A DNA stretch of 44,154 nt, from positions 1 to 44,154 of the IMG/VR virus record IMGVR_UViG_3300007735_000738, one strand, 5' to 3'. The DNA comes from a virus. The position numbers and the translations under genes are program-made. Below, one piece after another: positions 3,201 to 40,843 of the stretch; the first letter of the stretch is position 1, and the number at the start of each line of letters is the position of its first letter. A model generated the notes under the pieces. It searched no databases. It was not told where the DNA came from and was given only the letters and a program-made list of their open reading frames with translations.

Positions 3201-6200
3201 TATAGTGTCTGAATACGTAGAATCTAAACTGGGGACTGGGGCGAGGAAAACTTTGGATGAAGTTGGTAGAGTCAATAAATTACAAAATGTACCTTCTGGT
3301 GCTCTTAGGTTAGAAGTTAAAGAATTTCCAACCAATATTCGCATATTCAGAGATCTACCCGACCAAGACCCATGGACTACTTTTTATGCATTGCCCGGAA
3401 AGCGCACAAGGGGGACGCGCACATCCAATAAAGTTTTCCGTAAAGGCGGTGTATTTTCCTCTGGACTCTTCACTCCGAAGCAGAGGGATATCATTCTTGC
3501 GGGTAAGAGCGAGGTAGCAGCGGCGAACAACGAATTTAAATTTACCCTTGAGGCCTTAGATAGGGCTGTGAAGAAAGCGTATGGCAATAAGCCTCCGACT
3601 GACGTTATTAATAGAGTTCTCGGATCCACGGAGAATCCGCTCACGGATACGCAGGTTCAAGATCTCAGGGACTATGCAAAGACATTAAGAGCAAGCAAGC
3701 TAAGCAATGATGAGATAAACGAGAAAGTTTCCGCTCGTAAAGCAGTATTCCGTAATGACAACCAAAATGCTCAGAGGACACAGATTGCAGCAGACCTAGC
3801 TACCTTGGATCCGAAGGTAGCGCAGACCATCACGGCCATGCGTCAAAAATTGGATGCGCTTTCCACCAAGATGATCGAGGGTGGCTACATCGCCCAAGAA
3901 CTGATTCCGGTATTTGAGGGCAACATGGAGTTGTACCTACATCGTAATTACGCAATCTATAACGACCCCATCTGGAAAGAATACATGACCAACCCGCAGA
4001 CAGCGGAGCATATGAAGATCCGGACGGAATTCGAAAAACTGGCTACCGATCGTGCCGTGGCTGAAAAGATAGCCGACCTTCGTCGTGAGTCGCGCAAGAT
4101 TGATCCGACAAAGGTAATCTCCGTGGCCGATGCCAAGAAAGAAGTTCAAAACAATCATGCGGATTGGGTGGCTCGTCGCGTAGACGAAATCACCACGGAC
4201 TTCCTTAACGTAGCGGACGAGGATAGCTACAAGTTTTTCGTCAACGGTACATCTATACCCGGAAAACGTAGTTTGAATATCCTCAAGGTCAGGGGACAGT
4301 TGCCTAAAGAAGTCAGGGACTTCTGGGGCGAGGAGAAAGACATCAAGCTGAACTTTGCCCACGCCGCAGGGAAGATGGCATCCTTTATTTCGGCTACGGA
4401 TACTGCCAGAAATTTGCTCGATAATGGTATTAGCGAAGGATTTATCTGGAAAAAGAACTACGACAACCGTGTGGTATTCAATGGGAAAACACGGAAGTAC
4501 GATGTGATCCTTGGCGATGTCCGTAAAGAAGGCTTCAATACGGAGGCAGAGGCTGAGACTTGGAGACAGGCTGAGTATCCCGCAGCGGCGTCTAAACTCA
4601 TGTCCTCCGTGCATCCAAAGGGTTGGGTTCCTCTGATCAAGAAAGGAACGAATCCCCAGAGCATCGCACCCTTGGACGGAGCCTACGGACCTCCGGAATT
4701 GAGAGATGCCTTGAATCAGGCGTTCAATCCACAGGCAACGGCTGGCTGGGCCAACTGGTTTAGTGCGCTATCTCTCGCCGCCATGTCGGCTAAAACAATT
4801 GGATATATACCACGCTCCGTGGTCCGCAACTTCTTGGGTAACCCATTGATCGTCCTTTCCAAGGGCATGTTTAATTTGGGCGATCCTATGTCCATGGTCA
4901 AATCCATGGCCGATGGTTTTAAAGTAGCTGGCCTCAATGTTGGGTTGCGCGGAGAGAAGTTGCTTAAGGTACAACCTCTATTGCAGAAATTGGTTCGCCT
5001 AGGAGTAGTTGGGGATACCCTCAGCGGAGGGCTTTTGAAAAAACTCTACGAAGATAACAATGAGATTCCGATCATCAAAGCTCTTTACTCTGACACACCT
5101 TACGACAGCAAACTGAAAAACCTTGGTGCTAGTGTCGCCAAGAAAATTGGAACTGCCTATAGCAAGGCAGCAGATATCTATCAGGGTGTCGATGATATCT
5201 GGAAAGTGTATGCTTGGCAGCAGGAACGCATGAACCAAGCTAAAGCCAACCCCGGCATGACTGATGAACAGCTTGATGAAGCTGCTGCTTATGTGGTGCG
5301 CAATACACTGCCAACATACAGCTTGTCTCCCCAGATAACTAAAGAGCTACGCAGGATTCCGGTTCTGGCACCGTTCATTACTTGGACGAGCGAAGTTCTT
5401 CGCACCACCAGCAATGGTATATCGATAGCCAACTCCGAGATCAAAGAGGGTTTGGCTACCAAAAATAAGGCAATGTATGCCAATGGTATATCTCGTTGGG
5501 CAGGACTGATTGGTGCACTGGGTATTATACCTGTTGCAGCAGCCGTATCGAAGGCTGTTTTTGGTAATACCGATGACGATGACGAGGCTGTACGTAATCT
5601 TGTACGTGACTGGCAGAAGAACTCGGAGATCATGCTTTTGGACAAACCAAAAGACGGGAAGGTGAAGTACGTTGATCTTAGCTATCTTGACCCGTTCCAA
5701 GTATTCAAGGAGCCCGTGATCGCCGCTATGCGAGGATTTAACTCTGGGGATGACCTCATGAAAGTAGCATACGATACTGGGCGCGAGGCTCTTCGTCCCG
5801 TGCTGTCGGAACAGCTTTTATTCGGAGCCGTACTGGATGCAATGCGAAACCAGACAGCGGATGGTATGCGGATCACCAATCCGCAAGATACTATAACCAA
5901 GCAGACTTACGACAAGATCATGCACGTGACATCTATCCTTACCCCCGGAGTACTGGCCGATACCATCCCCAATATTATGAAAGGGGCAGAGGGCAAGATC
6001 TCTAGTTCTGGAAAAGTGTATAGCCTCAGTAATGAAGTATACAGTGCTCTGCTTGGTCAGAAGATCAGCGAGATGGACGCACAGACTAGCCTTCGCCAAA
6101 AGATGGGTGCTTACAAGCGCGGCAATATGGACGCTACCAGTCTATTTACGAATACGCTTCTTAACCGTGGAACTATTGAGCCGGGGGATGTTGTCTATGC

Positions 6201-24519: not shown

Positions 24520-24563
24520 CATTTGCCCATGGAATCAAGGATCCAAGGGTTCATTATCACATT

Positions 24564-24962
24564 GGGTAGGGGAGGAAAAAGTCACCCCTACCCACCTACA
24601 GAGAAAGGGTAGGGGTGAAAACTCCGAAAAATTCCACCCCTACCCAAGTTAAGTGCTTGATTTTCAACATACTTACAAGGCGTGGGTAGGGGATGTAGGG
24701 CTTTTTTAAATTGATTGAAGAAAAAGTATATATATATGTATCGCCGGAATCCCCTCGGGCCGAAAAACCGCCGCAAAACCCCACGGTTTTGAAAAAAAGC
24801 CCTACATCCCCTACCCAATCGGGGTTAACCCCTTGGGCTACAGAGACTTACGCAAAAAGTTTCACCCCTACCCTCACCCCTACCCACCCCTACCCATTTC
24901 CCATAAACCCTTGATCCTAGGATACTTACAACAATGATTTCACCCCTACCCATCTCCTACCC
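24564..24962. repeat. Iteron array CCCCTACCC, probable replication origin
   Basis: The 9-mer CCCCTACCC or its complement GGGTAGGGG occurs ten times exactly: plus-strand C-form at 24585, 24637, 24808, 24865, 24877, 24887 and 24943, and G-form at 24564, 24607 and 24684. One imperfect copy is at 24954. Most C-form copies extend to CACCCCTACCC. The three at 24865-24895 are 12 and 10 bases apart, about one helical turn. The array surrounds an inverted repeat and a TA tract, and lies 2 kb from the primase-helicase gene. This is the standard layout of an initiator-bound origin, though the initiator itself is not identified. Confidence 0.78.
24683..24817. repeat. Perfect 25-bp inverted repeat around a TA-rich tract
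   Basis: The arms at 24683-24707 and 24793-24817 are exact reverse complements over 25 bases; each holds an iteron core (24684-24692, 24808-24816), ATGTAGGGC or its complement, and six T or A. The 85-base spacer contains TATATATATATG (24727-24738) and a 7-bp hairpin CAAAACC/GGTTTTG (24774-24791). A 12-bp perfect palindrome GGGGTTAACCCC follows at 24821-24832 and a 10-bp one, ATCCTAGGAT, at 24914-24923. I read the spacer as the DNA unwinding element. Confidence 0.8.
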
Positions 24963-26606: not shown

Positions 26607-26849
26607 TTAAAAATTCAAATACTGAATTCCTTGCAACAATTCTTCTTTCTTAGCTTTAGCTCTTTGGGACACTGTTTGATTCGGGGAATCTAGTTCTCCC
26701 GATCTCTCCAAAGCATCCAACTCAGCCTGCATCTCAGCGCGTTTCTTACGCCTCTCCGCGTCTGCTTCGGGAGTATCAACTGTGATATCTTTTGCCCCGT
26801 AACCAGCCGGGTCTTTGAACTGTTGTAGCGATTGATTTAGGTAAGACAT
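26607..26849 (-). CDS. 80-residue charged protein, first of the small-gene cluster
   Basis: This product begins MSYLNQSLQQFKDPAGYGAK and has an acidic-basic coil (EADAERRKKRAEMQAELDAL). It resembles its neighbours in composition but lacks the NRxTxL motif. It follows the structured terminator (26881-26968) by about 30 bases, so it would be expressed by read-through or from a separate promoter in that gap. Confidence 0.66.
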   Translation of the reverse strand: MSYLNQSLQQFKDPAGYGAKDITVDTPEADAERRKKRAEMQAELDALERSGELDSPNQTVSQRAKAKKEELLQGIQYLNF

Positions 26850-26880
26850 ATACGCGCACTATACTAAACACCACGTACAC

Positions 26881-26968
26881 GTAAAGAAAAAAAACTCCCG
26901 CCGTAAGAATAAACCCCACACTAACTGACCATGGAAATGTGGGGAGGTCAGCGAGCTTACGGCGGGAG
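26881..26968 (-). terminator. Intrinsic terminator with a pseudoknot-capable loop
   Basis: On the leftward strand the perfect 13-bp stem CTCCCGCCGTAAG (from 26968-26956) and CTTACGGCGGGAG (26907-26895) is followed at once by eight T, a textbook terminator 6 bases after the primase-helicase stop. Unusually, the 48-base loop holds two interleaved helices: CTGACC/GGTCAG (26951-26946 with 26930-26925) and CCCCACA/TGTGGGG (26944-26938 with 26920-26914). These cross each other, the definition of an H-type pseudoknot, with loops of 1, 7 and 4 bases. Confidence 0.85.
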
Positions 26969-26973
26969 CTAAA

Positions 26974-29127
26974 TTATTTTTTCTTGATAAAGGTTTCTTC
27001 GACTGCAATTACATACCAAGTTTTACCATGGTGGGATACATGACGCAAGACCCTACTTGATGGACGGTTTGAGAGCATGCGCAGTTCGCGGCCAAGTCTG
27101 ACGGGTGTGTACCGCGACAGCAACGGCTTGAGCATGCCCTCGTCGATCCCCATGACGCTGGAGAACAGGTCGGTTGCGGTGCCCTTCCACTCCTTCTTGG
27201 CCTTATCGTCCCGGCGCATGCTGCTGGCCCACCGATCTAGGATCTCCTCAAGCTTGGTAGCTGCGGAGTCCTCGTTCGCTGATTCGATCATCCTTGGGTG
27301 GTGGTAGGGACGAACCCCGAACCTTGGATTCTCTGACCACAGGACGTGGGCTTGCGGTGAATAATCGAGCAACCACCGCAAGAAGTGCGGCAATTCCCGC
27401 TTGATGATCTCCTCGTTCTCTTTGTTGGAGGAAAACTTGTGCTGGTACGGTTGGAACTGAAACAACATTATCTTATCGAGGATGTTGTTGTCCAAGGTCG
27501 GCAGCACCGACAACGAGTGCGCGTCAGTGTTCAGAGTCAGACACATGCATCCAGTCCACGGCAACTCTGTAGCATCCTTGAACTTCGGATGGTAGATCAC
27601 CGTGGGGTTGGCCACGTGCGACTTCAGTGACTCCGAGAACTGGCGGTGCTTGTCGGGGTCGATCGCTGACTGCGGATCGTCCACCACCCAGTGCGGGTGT
27701 TCGGCCACCGTCTTGTTGAAGCTGGTCTTACCCTGCAGATATGGTGCTGCGTCAGCCCATCCGCCGAGGCTGTCACCCATTATCTTGCGGTTAAACAGTG
27801 TTTTACCCTGTCCCGCGTCACCAGCGATAACGATCAACTGGCTTTGGACTGGCTCAAATTCTAGGGCAGCTTTGTACTTCCGCTTCCAGTAGGCCAGCCA
27901 ATACGGGAGTTGCTCATCCCCGAAACACGTCCAGATCCATTCGCGAATCCACTTCCAGTTTGCCTCGTCGCCGTTTTCTGCGGGAGCGATGGCCGTCCGG
28001 TAGTTGATATTGAGGATCCTTGTGTTGCCGATGTCAACGATCTCGCGCTTGTCGAACAGGATAGGCGCGGCTGCGTCCACCCTCCGCTGGGTTTCGATCG
28101 CGTGAAGTACTCGATCCATCTGGGACGCGCCCTTCTTGGATTCGGTCTTGATCCCATGAACCCTGAGACTTCGGGCCACGTTCTCCACTTTCGCATCGTA
28201 CCAGCGATTGTGTCCGTTTTTAAACCAGTAGGCCTTGCCATCGTAAAAGTACTCCATGACGGCTTTGCCGATAACCTCTTGCCTGTACTGGTCTACGAAC
28301 TGTTTCCCAAGTAGGTCTCCCCACGTGAGGAACGACTTTCCTGCGCGATCCGTGTAGCAGATGATCCCAGCTTCGGCCACCTGACATCCGATGCGGGTAA
28401 TGCCGTCATTGAGCCAGAATGTCGGGCCACGGGCACCCACCACAAAGTCCCCCGGCCACGCTCCGGGCCAACGTGCCTCGACTTCGGCGGCGATCTTTTC
28501 GATCGGGATCTCAAGGTCGCTTCCCGCGACTTTATTCCAGTCCACCTTGCTGCTGGCCTTGACGATGAGATCCCCCATCACGTTGTCCGACACGCTGGGG
28601 TTGCCCTGTACGACAACCCATCCGTGGCCGAGTTCGAACAGCTGATTCAGTCGGAACGAGCACTCGTCGATCCCCGGAAGGACGCTGCCGAGTTTAAACT
28701 TCTTGGCTATCTCCTTCATCAGGTGCTTCGCCATGTCCGGACAGTCCACGAGCACCGGAGTGTCGAACTGCCAGACCACACGGGCGTTGCCGCTGAACGT
28801 GCGGCTGATCGCCGCTGGCATCGCGTCCACATCGCAACGCGAGAGGATATCCTGCATATTGAAGTTAGCCCCCAGCTTGGCATCGTAGTCGACAACCATG
28901 CCGTGCAGCCACTTCGCGGGGTTATCCAGCGAGATGCGTTTGTGCGGATTGACGCCTTCTGCTGCCGTGTAGAAGCAGTGGTCGGTTGCCTTATCGCGTA
29001 CCCACTTCTCGTAGTCATCCTTTGTGGCGACATTCGCGGGGTACCCCGATGACGTGGCGTTCCAGATGTCTATCGGCGTCTCCGTGACATCCGATACCGT
29101 GAGATTTTTTGCGTAGAATGTTTTCAT
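26974..29127 (-). CDS. Primase-helicase (D5/P4-type)
   Basis: The 717-residue protein has an N-terminal primase-like region with GMVVDYDAKL (about residues 75-84, a DxD-type catalytic pair) and a C-terminal SF3-like helicase with Walker A AGDAGQGKT (about 437-445), a Walker B-like WVVDDPQ, and an Asn sensor in CLTLNTDAHS. This is the layout of D5/P4-type phage replication proteins that unwind and prime at the origin. The iteron origin lies 2 kb downstream. The gene overlaps the upstream 74-residue gene as ATGA and ends at the pseudoknot terminator. Confidence 0.9.
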   Translation of the reverse strand: MKTFYAKNLTVSDVTETPIDIWNATSSGYPANVATKDDYEKWVRDKATDHCFYTAAEGVNPHKRISLDNPAKWLHGMVVDYDAKLGANFNMQDILSRCDVDAMPAAISRTFSGNARVVWQFDTPVLVDCPDMAKHLMKEIAKKFKLGSVLPGIDECSFRLNQLFELGHGWVVVQGNPSVSDNVMGDLIVKASSKVDWNKVAGSDLEIPIEKIAAEVEARWPGAWPGDFVVGARGPTFWLNDGITRIGCQVAEAGIICYTDRAGKSFLTWGDLLGKQFVDQYRQEVIGKAVMEYFYDGKAYWFKNGHNRWYDAKVENVARSLRVHGIKTESKKGASQMDRVLHAIETQRRVDAAAPILFDKREIVDIGNTRILNINYRTAIAPAENGDEANWKWIREWIWTCFGDEQLPYWLAYWKRKYKAALEFEPVQSQLIVIAGDAGQGKTLFNRKIMGDSLGGWADAAPYLQGKTSFNKTVAEHPHWVVDDPQSAIDPDKHRQFSESLKSHVANPTVIYHPKFKDATELPWTGCMCLTLNTDAHSLSVLPTLDNNILDKIMLFQFQPYQHKFSSNKENEEIIKRELPHFLRWLLDYSPQAHVLWSENPRFGVRPYHHPRMIESANEDSAATKLEEILDRWASSMRRDDKAKKEWKGTATDLFSSVMGIDEGMLKPLLSRYTPVRLGRELRMLSNRPSSRVLRHVSHHGKTWYVIAVEETFIKKK

Positions 29128-31646: not shown

Positions 31647-31663
31647 TGTGTGTAAGAGAAAGT

Positions 31664-31773
31664 GTCCGGACTCGGCTTTGTTTCACACTGGGGAGACACA
31701 TGAGAAGCGTGAACACGCCTACGATACCCCTGTCTTGCGGGATCTCCCCGCACAGCATGCACCGAGTCCGGAC
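31664..31773 (-). ncRNA. Structured leader RNA before the DNA polymerase gene
   Basis: GTCCGGACTCGG (31664-31675) and CCGAGTCCGGAC (31762-31773) form a perfect 12-bp closing stem over an 86-base interior that can fold into TGCGG/CCGCA and GCGTG/CACGC hairpins, or alternatively pair GGGGAGA with TCTCCCC. It fills the 136-base gap between the gene at 31783 and the polymerase ATG. It could be a terminator with weak U-run, a processing site or a translational control element; no known riboswitch is recognised. Confidence 0.5.
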
Positions 31774-31782
31774 TGTTAGTGA

Positions 31783-37289: not shown

Positions 37290-37350
37290 AAAAAATTGCG
37301 ACTCCGCATACAAAGATCCTTAACGGATCCCCCCAAGTATACGGAGTCGC
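37290..37350 (-). terminator. Intrinsic terminator between the integrase/RuvC unit and the replication unit
   Basis: On the leftward strand GCGACTCCGTATAC (37350-37337) pairs with GTATGCGGAGTCGC (37311-37298) through 14 pairs with one G-U, followed by AATTTTTT. The 25-base loop contains a further GATCC/GGATC hairpin. Right after the U-run comes TAGGAGG and ATG 37275, so it may also work as an attenuator of the small gene. Confidence 0.82.
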
Positions 37351-37432: not shown

Positions 37433-37891
37433 TCAGATAAGTTCGCGCTTAGCCGCATGGAAAATCAACAAAGCGTCTGCATTGGCCAGCGTCACTTTGT
37501 AGTTTGGATACAGCATCTGTGCTTTGGATTTAAGGTGATTTTTCCACTCGGTCTTGGATCGCCCATTCGTGGTGCCCAGACCCAAAGCCTTCTGCCATTT
37601 CTGTGGCGTTACGTGACGCACCTCCAAACCCAATGTGCAAGCCACCGCTTCAAGATGCCCGTAGTTTTGTCCGAAGTTGAACATAGCAGATCCCGGAGCA
37701 CCCTTACCCCCCACATATCCACCTACCTTTTCGAGGTACACAACACAGTCTGTAGTTATTGCGATTTTGCGGAAGAGGTCAATTATGTCGCCAAGCGTTT
37801 CTGGCATGTTGAAGCACTTGGGTTCTTCTGCACTTTTCCATCCGGAGACAATGGCTCCAGATTTTCCCGGATCTATGGATATTACGATCAT
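37433..37891 (-). CDS. RuvC-like Holliday junction resolvase
   Basis: The 152-residue protein has the RuvC/RNase H-like first strand ISIDPGKSGAIV (catalytic Asp7), a second acidic site in YLEKVGG (Glu at about 54) and a C-terminal acidic NADALLIFHAA (Asp near 142). These residues cut branched DNA in the RuvC fold. The length fits phage RuvC-like resolvases. It starts 2 bases after the integrase stop, so the two are co-transcribed. Confidence 0.9.
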   Translation of the reverse strand: MIVISIDPGKSGAIVSGWKSAEEPKCFNMPETLGDIIDLFRKIAITTDCVVYLEKVGGYVGGKGAPGSAMFNFGQNYGHLEAVACTLGLEVRHVTPQKWQKALGLGTTNGRSKTEWKNHLKSKAQMLYPNYKVTLANADALLIFHAAKRELI

Positions 37892-39029: not shown

Positions 39030-39094
39030 GTGTTTCGAGTTGTGTGCGCCGACTTTGAACTACTCGGTCGCGGCTGTCAAAAACTTTTTTGATC

Positions 39095-40843
39095 ATGGCC
39101 ACGAACAAAAAAACAGTCACTGTTTACGGACGGGAATTTCCCGAAGATATTACGCTGGTCACGCTGGAGTTGAGTTGTTTGAACGACCCACCTCCGCAGT
39201 CTCCGGGCAAACTTTTTCATTTCAAACGTGTAGTGGATTTGTTGTGGAACCACCCCGATTCGAAGATGCCAATCGAGTGGACTCCTTGGCTGGAGCGCAT
39301 GATTGAGGCTGCTTTCGAGCACAAGTATCTGGCCGTGGCTGGTTGCGCCAGTAGTGGGAAATCCCAAGCCTACGCTCTGTGGGCCATCGTCAACTTCCTC
39401 ATGAAGCCGTGGGCCACGCTCGTGATCGTCACCTCGACCAGTCTTAAGGAATCCAGAAAGCGTATCTGGGGCGCGATTACCGATCTTTGGCGTGCTGTTC
39501 CGGGGCTTCCGGGCAAGTTGGTCGACTCCGTTGGCATGATCCGCATGGACGATGGCACCGACACCAAATACGGCGATCGTTGCGGCATCGCTCTCGTAGC
39601 TGCAGAGCGTAAGAAAGAACGCGAAGCTGTCGGCAAGCTAGTCGGTATCAAGCAACAGCGTGTCATATTCATCGCTGACGAGTTGCCCGAACTAGGTGAA
39701 TCGATCCTCGAAGCTGCCTACACCAACTTGTCGAACAACCCCTACTTCCAGCTGATTGGCATCGGCAACCCTGCGAGCTACTACGACCCTTTTGGACAAT
39801 TCGCCACGCCCAAAGATGGATGGGGTTCCATCACCGTGGAGGATGAGGAGTGGGAAACGGAACGTGGGCACTGCCTGCACTTCGACGCCCACAAGTCCCC
39901 GAACATTATAGCTGGGCACGTCATGTACCCATGGATGATTACGCCATCTAACCTTGCGGAAAGCGCAAGCAAGCTGGGTGAGAATAGCCCCGGCTACTGG
40001 CGTATGTACCGTGGATTTTGGTGTCCTACGGGATCGGATAGCTCGATCTACAGCGAGTCGGATATCATCAAGTACGGAGCCGACCAGCGTGTGCAATGGA
40101 TCGACAAGCCCACGAAGGTGGCTGCTCTCGATCCTTCATTCAGTGCCAACGGTGACCGCAGTATTCTCTATTTTGGTTTTGTAGGGAAAGATACCACGGG
40201 GAGGCGTGTCATATGCCTAGATCACTACGAGGAGCTTCGGGAGGATGTCACAAATAAGGACGAGCCGAGAGCCTTTCAAATTGCCCGTCAGTTCAAGGAC
40301 AAGTGTGAGGCTTGGGGCGTCACTTCTCAAAACGCTGCGTATGATGCTAGTGGTGGCGGTGCGCCATTCGGAGACGTGGTAGATGCGATGTGGTCGCGGA
40401 ATGTCCTCCGGGTTCAGTTCGGCGGTAAGGCCAGTGAGAGGCCCGTTTCTCTTACAGATCGTATTCCGGGGCATGAGAGGTACGCTAACAGAGTCTCCGA
40501 ACTCTGGTGGACTGGTAAGGAATTAATACGTAATAAACAATTATTTGGTATCTCCAGAGAGTTAGTACGGGAAATGACGGAACGTCAATACACCACGGAA
40601 AAAGGTTTGAGCATGCGTATCCGCGTCGAAACAAAGTCGGACATGAAAGTCCGTATCGGCAAATCGCCAGATATTTCAGACGCAGCATTTATTTTGATTG
40701 AACTCTGCCGCACTCGGCATAACTTGACCGCCATCGACAAGATGCCGATCGACCCGTTCCAACCGGATAGCAGTTATAAAAAATGGTTTAAAAAGGTTGA
40801 TCTGGTTAGAAAGTCGGGTAAAAGAATCAATTACGGACACTAA
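39095..40843 (+). CDS. terL: Terminase large subunit
   Basis: The 583-residue protein has an ATPase domain with Walker A GCASSGKS (about residues 83-90) and Walker B VIFIADELPE (about 190-199), and an RNase H-like nuclease domain with AALDPSFSANGDRS (about 343-356), AAYDASGGG and PDISDAA. It cuts and pumps DNA into the capsid. I start at ATG 39095 (MATNKKTVTVYG); a TTG two codons earlier is also open. It is followed after 6 bases by the glycosyltransferase-like gene and then the portal gene. Confidence 0.95.
   Translation: MATNKKTVTVYGREFPEDITLVTLELSCLNDPPPQSPGKLFHFKRVVDLLWNHPDSKMPIEWTPWLERMIEAAFEHKYLAVAGCASSGKSQAYALWAIVNFLMKPWATLVIVTSTSLKESRKRIWGAITDLWRAVPGLPGKLVDSVGMIRMDDGTDTKYGDRCGIALVAAERKKEREAVGKLVGIKQQRVIFIADELPELGESILEAAYTNLSNNPYFQLIGIGNPASYYDPFGQFATPKDGWGSITVEDEEWETERGHCLHFDAHKSPNIIAGHVMYPWMITPSNLAESASKLGENSPGYWRMYRGFWCPTGSDSSIYSESDIIKYGADQRVQWIDKPTKVAALDPSFSANGDRSILYFGFVGKDTTGRRVICLDHYEELREDVTNKDEPRAFQIARQFKDKCEAWGVTSQNAAYDASGGGAPFGDVVDAMWSRNVLRVQFGGKASERPVSLTDRIPGHERYANRVSELWWTGKELIRNKQLFGISRELVREMTERQYTTEKGLSMRIRVETKSDMKVRIGKSPDISDAAFILIELCRTRHNLTAIDKMPIDPFQPDSSYKKWFKKVDLVRKSGKRINYGH

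Follow-up and report, generated by a model that had tools for sequence, protein, structure and literature searches.

Terminator-promoter junctions lie between the operons of phages. The locus described here, on the minus strand of a 44,154-nt stretch of viral DNA (hereafter, the window), resembles such a junction in that a promoter-like site and a start codon come right after a terminator. It differs in that the promoter-like site, and with it the -10, ends only 8 nt from the ATG, a spacing that would give a nearly leaderless message. As in intrinsic terminators of bacteria and phages, the stem found here is perfect and G+C-rich, is followed immediately by eight U, stands just past a stop codon and works out on one strand only; unlike in these terminators, the 48-nt outer loop holds a second hairpin. 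PMC12207403 gives a median loop of 4 nt for typical terminators and quotes the TransTermHP bounds as a loop of 3-13 nt and a stem-loop of at most 59 nt. With an outer hairpin of 74 nt and a loop of 48 nt, our locus lies outside the bounds as quoted there, but these bounds belong to a prediction program and not to the mechanism, and the nested inner hairpin (S2) shortens the effective loop. The locus also shares with H-type pseudoknots a pair of perfect, interleaved helices whose loops are of feasible length, and differs from them in that the crossing helix (S1) is missing from the only homologue.

The terminator stem-loop occupies positions 26895..26968 of the window (minus strand). Its arms, CTCCCGCCGTAAG (26968-26956) and CTTACGGCGGGAG (26907-26895), form 13 Watson-Crick pairs, 9 of which are G-C, and the U-tract (T8 in DNA; 26887..26894, minus strand) follows directly after the stem, exactly as the initial annotation had stated. 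Scanning both strands for stems of at least 9 bp with loops of up to 60 nt, followed by at least six T in eight, revealed two sites in the window, this one and a 9-bp site at 37350-37298. In Markov-resampled windows (n = 20) the scan returned 0.1 matches on average, and 13-bp stems were seen in none. Folding of the 96-nt region gave an MFE of -39.7 kcal/mol (z = -6.3), a value that none of 200 shuffles reached. The terminator at 26968-26895 is far beyond chance, and the stable G+C-rich stem with a U-tract directly behind it (U8 in the window, U7 in the homologue), 5 nt past the primase stop codon, supports its assignment as an intrinsic terminator. Only on the minus strand is the U-tract a good one; a bidirectional terminator was rejected because the plus-strand tail, CTAAATTATTTTTT, is poor near the stem. 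The second terminator-like site (37298-37350, minus strand) consists of a 9-bp stem with a 35-nt loop and then AATTTTTT, and lies after the ORF at 37433-37891.

Within the outer loop, the core of S2 is formed by CCCCACA (26944-26938) and TGTGGGG (26920-26914) over 7 bp. In the nested fold the helix extends to 9 bp (TT/AG, one G-U), its 5' arm CCCCACA(TT) then covering 26936..26944 and its 3' arm (AG)TGTGGGG covering 26914..26922 on the minus strand. S1 is formed by CTGACC (26946..26951, minus strand) and GGTCAG (26925..26930, minus strand). The 48-nt loop thus contains the two interleaved perfect helices of 6 and 7 bp, with connecting loops of 1, 7 and 4 nt, that had been noticed in the initial annotation. 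A search of the window against Rfam gave no match, the best match for the homologue described below was mir-971 with 28.1 bits, short of the gathering score of 53, and a search for tRNA and tmRNA found none.

The gene upstream of the stem-loop (26974..29127, minus strand) is primase-like (DUF5906, E 1.6e-6; PHROG DNA primase, E 2.3e-5). On the other side, directly after the U-tract, lies the promoter-like site TTTACG-16-TATAGT (26858..26885, minus strand), which is identical in the homologue. It scores 9/12, and shuffled sequence yields matches of this kind no less often (7 found in the region versus 10.3 expected); since agreement with the consensus is by itself not significant, what argues for a promoter is the position of the site and its identity in the homologue. 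The first small ORF after the site (26607..26849, minus strand) encodes 80 aa and belongs to no family according to the family search. The description of the element as lying next to the origin holds only loosely, the candidate iterons being ~2 kb off. Repeats of GGGTAGGGG in both orientations occur at 24562-24817, and also in relatives; their position beside the turn of the cumulative GC skew near 24 kb makes this region a candidate replication origin.

Primase searches of IMG/VR yielded 12 distinct contigs, 11 of them readable past the stop codon; the other one (L007/L030) is cut before the primase end. The element is present in two of the 11, 3300037189_013786 and 3300032318_001123, both with 94% primase identity. 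These two are identical to each other in primase and cassette and thus amount to one distinct homologue. The remaining contigs lack the element. In five with 86-91% primase identity the site is empty, the next ATG coming directly after the primase stop; the four with 61-64% identity have a different structured RNA, located at the primase end or downstream of it. In 3300032318_000963, the next gene (MDKLKQA...) is that of the two element-bearing contigs, with the cassette missing in between. Finding the same next gene with and without the cassette suggests a clean gain or loss (insertion or deletion) of the cassette. Exact and gapped element patterns matched only 3300037189_013786 and 3300032318_001123 among viral contigs, and in genome contigs the element pattern had 0 matches and the primase search retrieved no relative. 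In the phage collection, neither the element nor the primase nor the large protein at 39089-40843 was matched by blastn or tblastn, so that this search revealed no cultured relative and no host; for polA, identity was at most 26% among the matches listed.

A covariance search over related phages had been proposed as a check at the outset. Carried out with a model built from the window and the homologue and comprising the outer stem and S2 only (R2), it recovered 3 of 17 records, i.e. the window and the two homologue contigs. Apart from the known sites and their reverse strand, R2 matched a minus-strand site at 6146-6209 of L027 (22.6 bits, E 2.4e-4; L027 and L040 are one contig) and scored 12.5 bits (E 0.58) in L005/L026/L038. 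The L027 site was considered as a further copy of the element and rejected; it lies on the opposite strand within a block of CCCCACCCC repeats that is found downstream of the primase, and was read as a composition match. The whole-record R2 search did not report it.

Comparison of the window with the homologue showed no difference over 111 nt once the apical loop and one U of the U-tract are set aside, the homologue keeping the outer stem, S2, U7, the S1 5' arm and the promoter-like site. Of 2152 ungapped positions in their primase genes, 200 (9.3%) differ; of the last 600 nt, 25 do. Zero changes in 111 nt have a probability of ~2e-5 at the overall primase rate and of ~0.01 at the local rate, making constraint or recent exchange likely. 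As the outer stem and S2 are identical in both versions and show no compensatory changes, they count as conserved in sequence only. The first gene after the cassette differs between the two (26607-26849 in the window, L029:5797-6213 in the homologue), the sequences breaking apart directly after the ATG; judging from this alignment, the gene appears to have been replaced at the cassette junction.

Besides the one U, the whole difference between the two cassettes lies in the apical loop, which reads TCCATGGTCAGTT in the window and CTTGTTTGGG in the homologue. With the latter, S2 becomes a hairpin of 12 bp that has 4 nt in its loop, and the MFE falls to -41.8 versus -36.6 in the window. The initial annotation had held that homologous sites keeping the outer stem but losing the complementarity of the two inner helices would speak against the pseudoknot. 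In the one distinct homologue, complementarity is lost for S1 and retained for S2: the S1 3' arm is replaced, and of the five lettered cells that a MAFFT alignment places opposite the 5' arm, four could pair (one as G-U) and the fifth is a U-U mismatch, the sixth cell being a gap. Two crossing helices with spanning loops, as required of an H-type pseudoknot, are thus present in the window, and only S2 is kept in the homologue.

We consider it unlikely that this phage carries a real H-type pseudoknot terminator, in which S1 and S2 would together modulate termination or shield the 3' end. Points in its favour are the perfect 6-bp S1, the workable loops, the presence of the S1 5' arm in both versions and the rarity of S1 by chance. 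With the outer stem and S2 fixed and the remaining loop bases shuffled in 200,000 trials, a 6-bp Watson-Crick crossing helix arose in 0.25% of the composition-matched shuffles, or in 0.5% when S2 was set at 7 bp by opening its two innermost pairs; S1 is unlikely by composition alone, this figure being that of one feature picked by the reader among many. Likewise, the flank-loop duplex of the window (-11.9 kcal/mol) was equalled by 0.3% of shuffles, and a rough Dirks-Pierce-style sum gave the pseudoknot -37.8 to -43.2 kcal/mol versus -36.6 kcal/mol for the nested fold, which suggests that a pseudoknot is energetically possible in the window sequence. The homologue, however, does without the S1 3' arm: its corresponding duplex (-5.8 kcal/mol) was equalled by 35% of shuffled loops, and the change strengthens nested S2 instead, with no covariation. 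The proposal that the pseudoknot is a functional feature did not hold up against this comparison, in which the apical loop of the homologue pairs with the S1 5' arm no better than shuffled sequence; as the comparison involves one distinct homologue, the pseudoknot is weakened rather than excluded. S1 in the window is best read as one form of an apical loop that changes quickly and not as a needed part, arisen by coincidence or specific to this lineage. For the other roles suggested in the initial annotation, those of a protein-binding RNA, an exonuclease-resistant 3' end or a stable RNA, the analysis turned up no support.

The same loop could act earlier, during transcription. Before the 3' arm of the terminator is made, S1 together with pairing of the terminator 5' arm and the S2 3' arm would give an antiterminator-like fold, and termination would be conditional. 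The nascent 69-77-nt RNA of the window is predicted to fold in this way at -20.8 to -21.1, as compared with -17.0 when S2 is enforced at 73 nt, but the terminator fold takes over by 81 nt, the complete terminator wins by a wide margin, and the homologue folds straight to S2. Arms rich in G and in C readily pair by chance, and no candidate ligand or protein was seen, so that we regard a kinetic switch as very unlikely. Control by translation, in which a ribosome standing on the stop codon of the primase would cover the 5' arm and let RNA polymerase pass, would fit the 5 nt that separate stop codon and stem in the window, but the spacing varies, reaching 27 nt in the homologue (L029; the stop ends at 5654 and the stem starts at 5682), and we give this explanation hardly any credence.

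By far the most probable reading is that of an ordinary intrinsic terminator and a sigma-70-like promoter placed between the primase operon and the small downstream genes, with nested S2 closing the long loop and S1 unneeded. According to this model, RNA polymerase moving leftward would leave the primase gene, and the S2 hairpin would fold first and draw together the outer-stem arms, which are otherwise 48 nt apart. The 13-bp outer stem would then close behind RNA polymerase during synthesis of the U-tract, ending the transcript. A new transcript, that of the small downstream genes, would start at the adjacent promoter-like site, and the two groups of genes would thereby be separated. The suggested order of folding is based on partial folds of the homologue, in which S2 is complete (-21.2) before the 3' arm exists.

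Two other RNAs emerged from the comparison of the relatives. A structured RNA of ~110 nt occupies the gap before polA (31658-31778 in the window, minus strand) and ends 11 nt before the ATG. A model of this polA-leader RNA built from four sequences (R3) matched 13 of 17 records, i.e. the window and all 12 primase-bearing contigs, and was absent from the four records that had been fetched only via the pattern of the second RNA, R1. Across 10 distinct sequences, 93.8% of cells pair and 19 of 36 pairs show double-sided changes (63 cells). The covariation score, calculated on an alignment fitted to the model, was 0.527 versus 0.058-0.126 for slid versions. In the 9 sites checked the RNA ends 5-11 nt before the polA ATG, and in the closest relatives it contains an invariant GTGTGAAACAAAG stretch. 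It had no match in Rfam, and a literature search listed nothing that was obviously about it. T4 DNA polymerase provides a precedent for a translational operator, and our guess, by analogy, is that the polA-leader RNA may serve polA as a translational operator in the same manner. For RNA biology, it is a better lead than the terminator pseudoknot.

R1 is a second covarying RNA, with a core GACC...AACA, a hairpin with GGGGAGG, and GCGCYAACCAGUC. In distant relatives the R1 model places it at the primase end or downstream of it (plus strand; L026:5648-5729, L027:5648-5725, L028:5800-5877 and L031:6157-6234); in others it occupies the 5' end of a polA-like ORF, within the first codons (L033:2443-2514, plus strand; L035:2052-2123 and L036:3757-3832, minus strand). 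The R1 pattern had 8 matches, of which that in L034 is unsupported by the model. Among 6 distinct sequences, 10 of 22 pairs show double-sided changes. R1 was also considered as the terminator element itself and rejected; in the window its model scores only 15.9 bits (E 0.45), and at another place, and R1 is absent from the window.

The apical loop may also be looked upon as a changeable module, in which a pseudoknot formed in the window phage, or a transient antiterminator formed with the 5' arm, would delay or tune termination, and the sister phages would have a constitutive 12-bp inner hairpin. We hold this view to be unlikely; if true, there would be two versions of one cassette, one regulated and the other unregulated. 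As an ordinary terminator with an adjacent promoter-like site, present or absent at a clean site within a phage lineage, the cassette illustrates how phages may uncouple their replication genes from the genes downstream.
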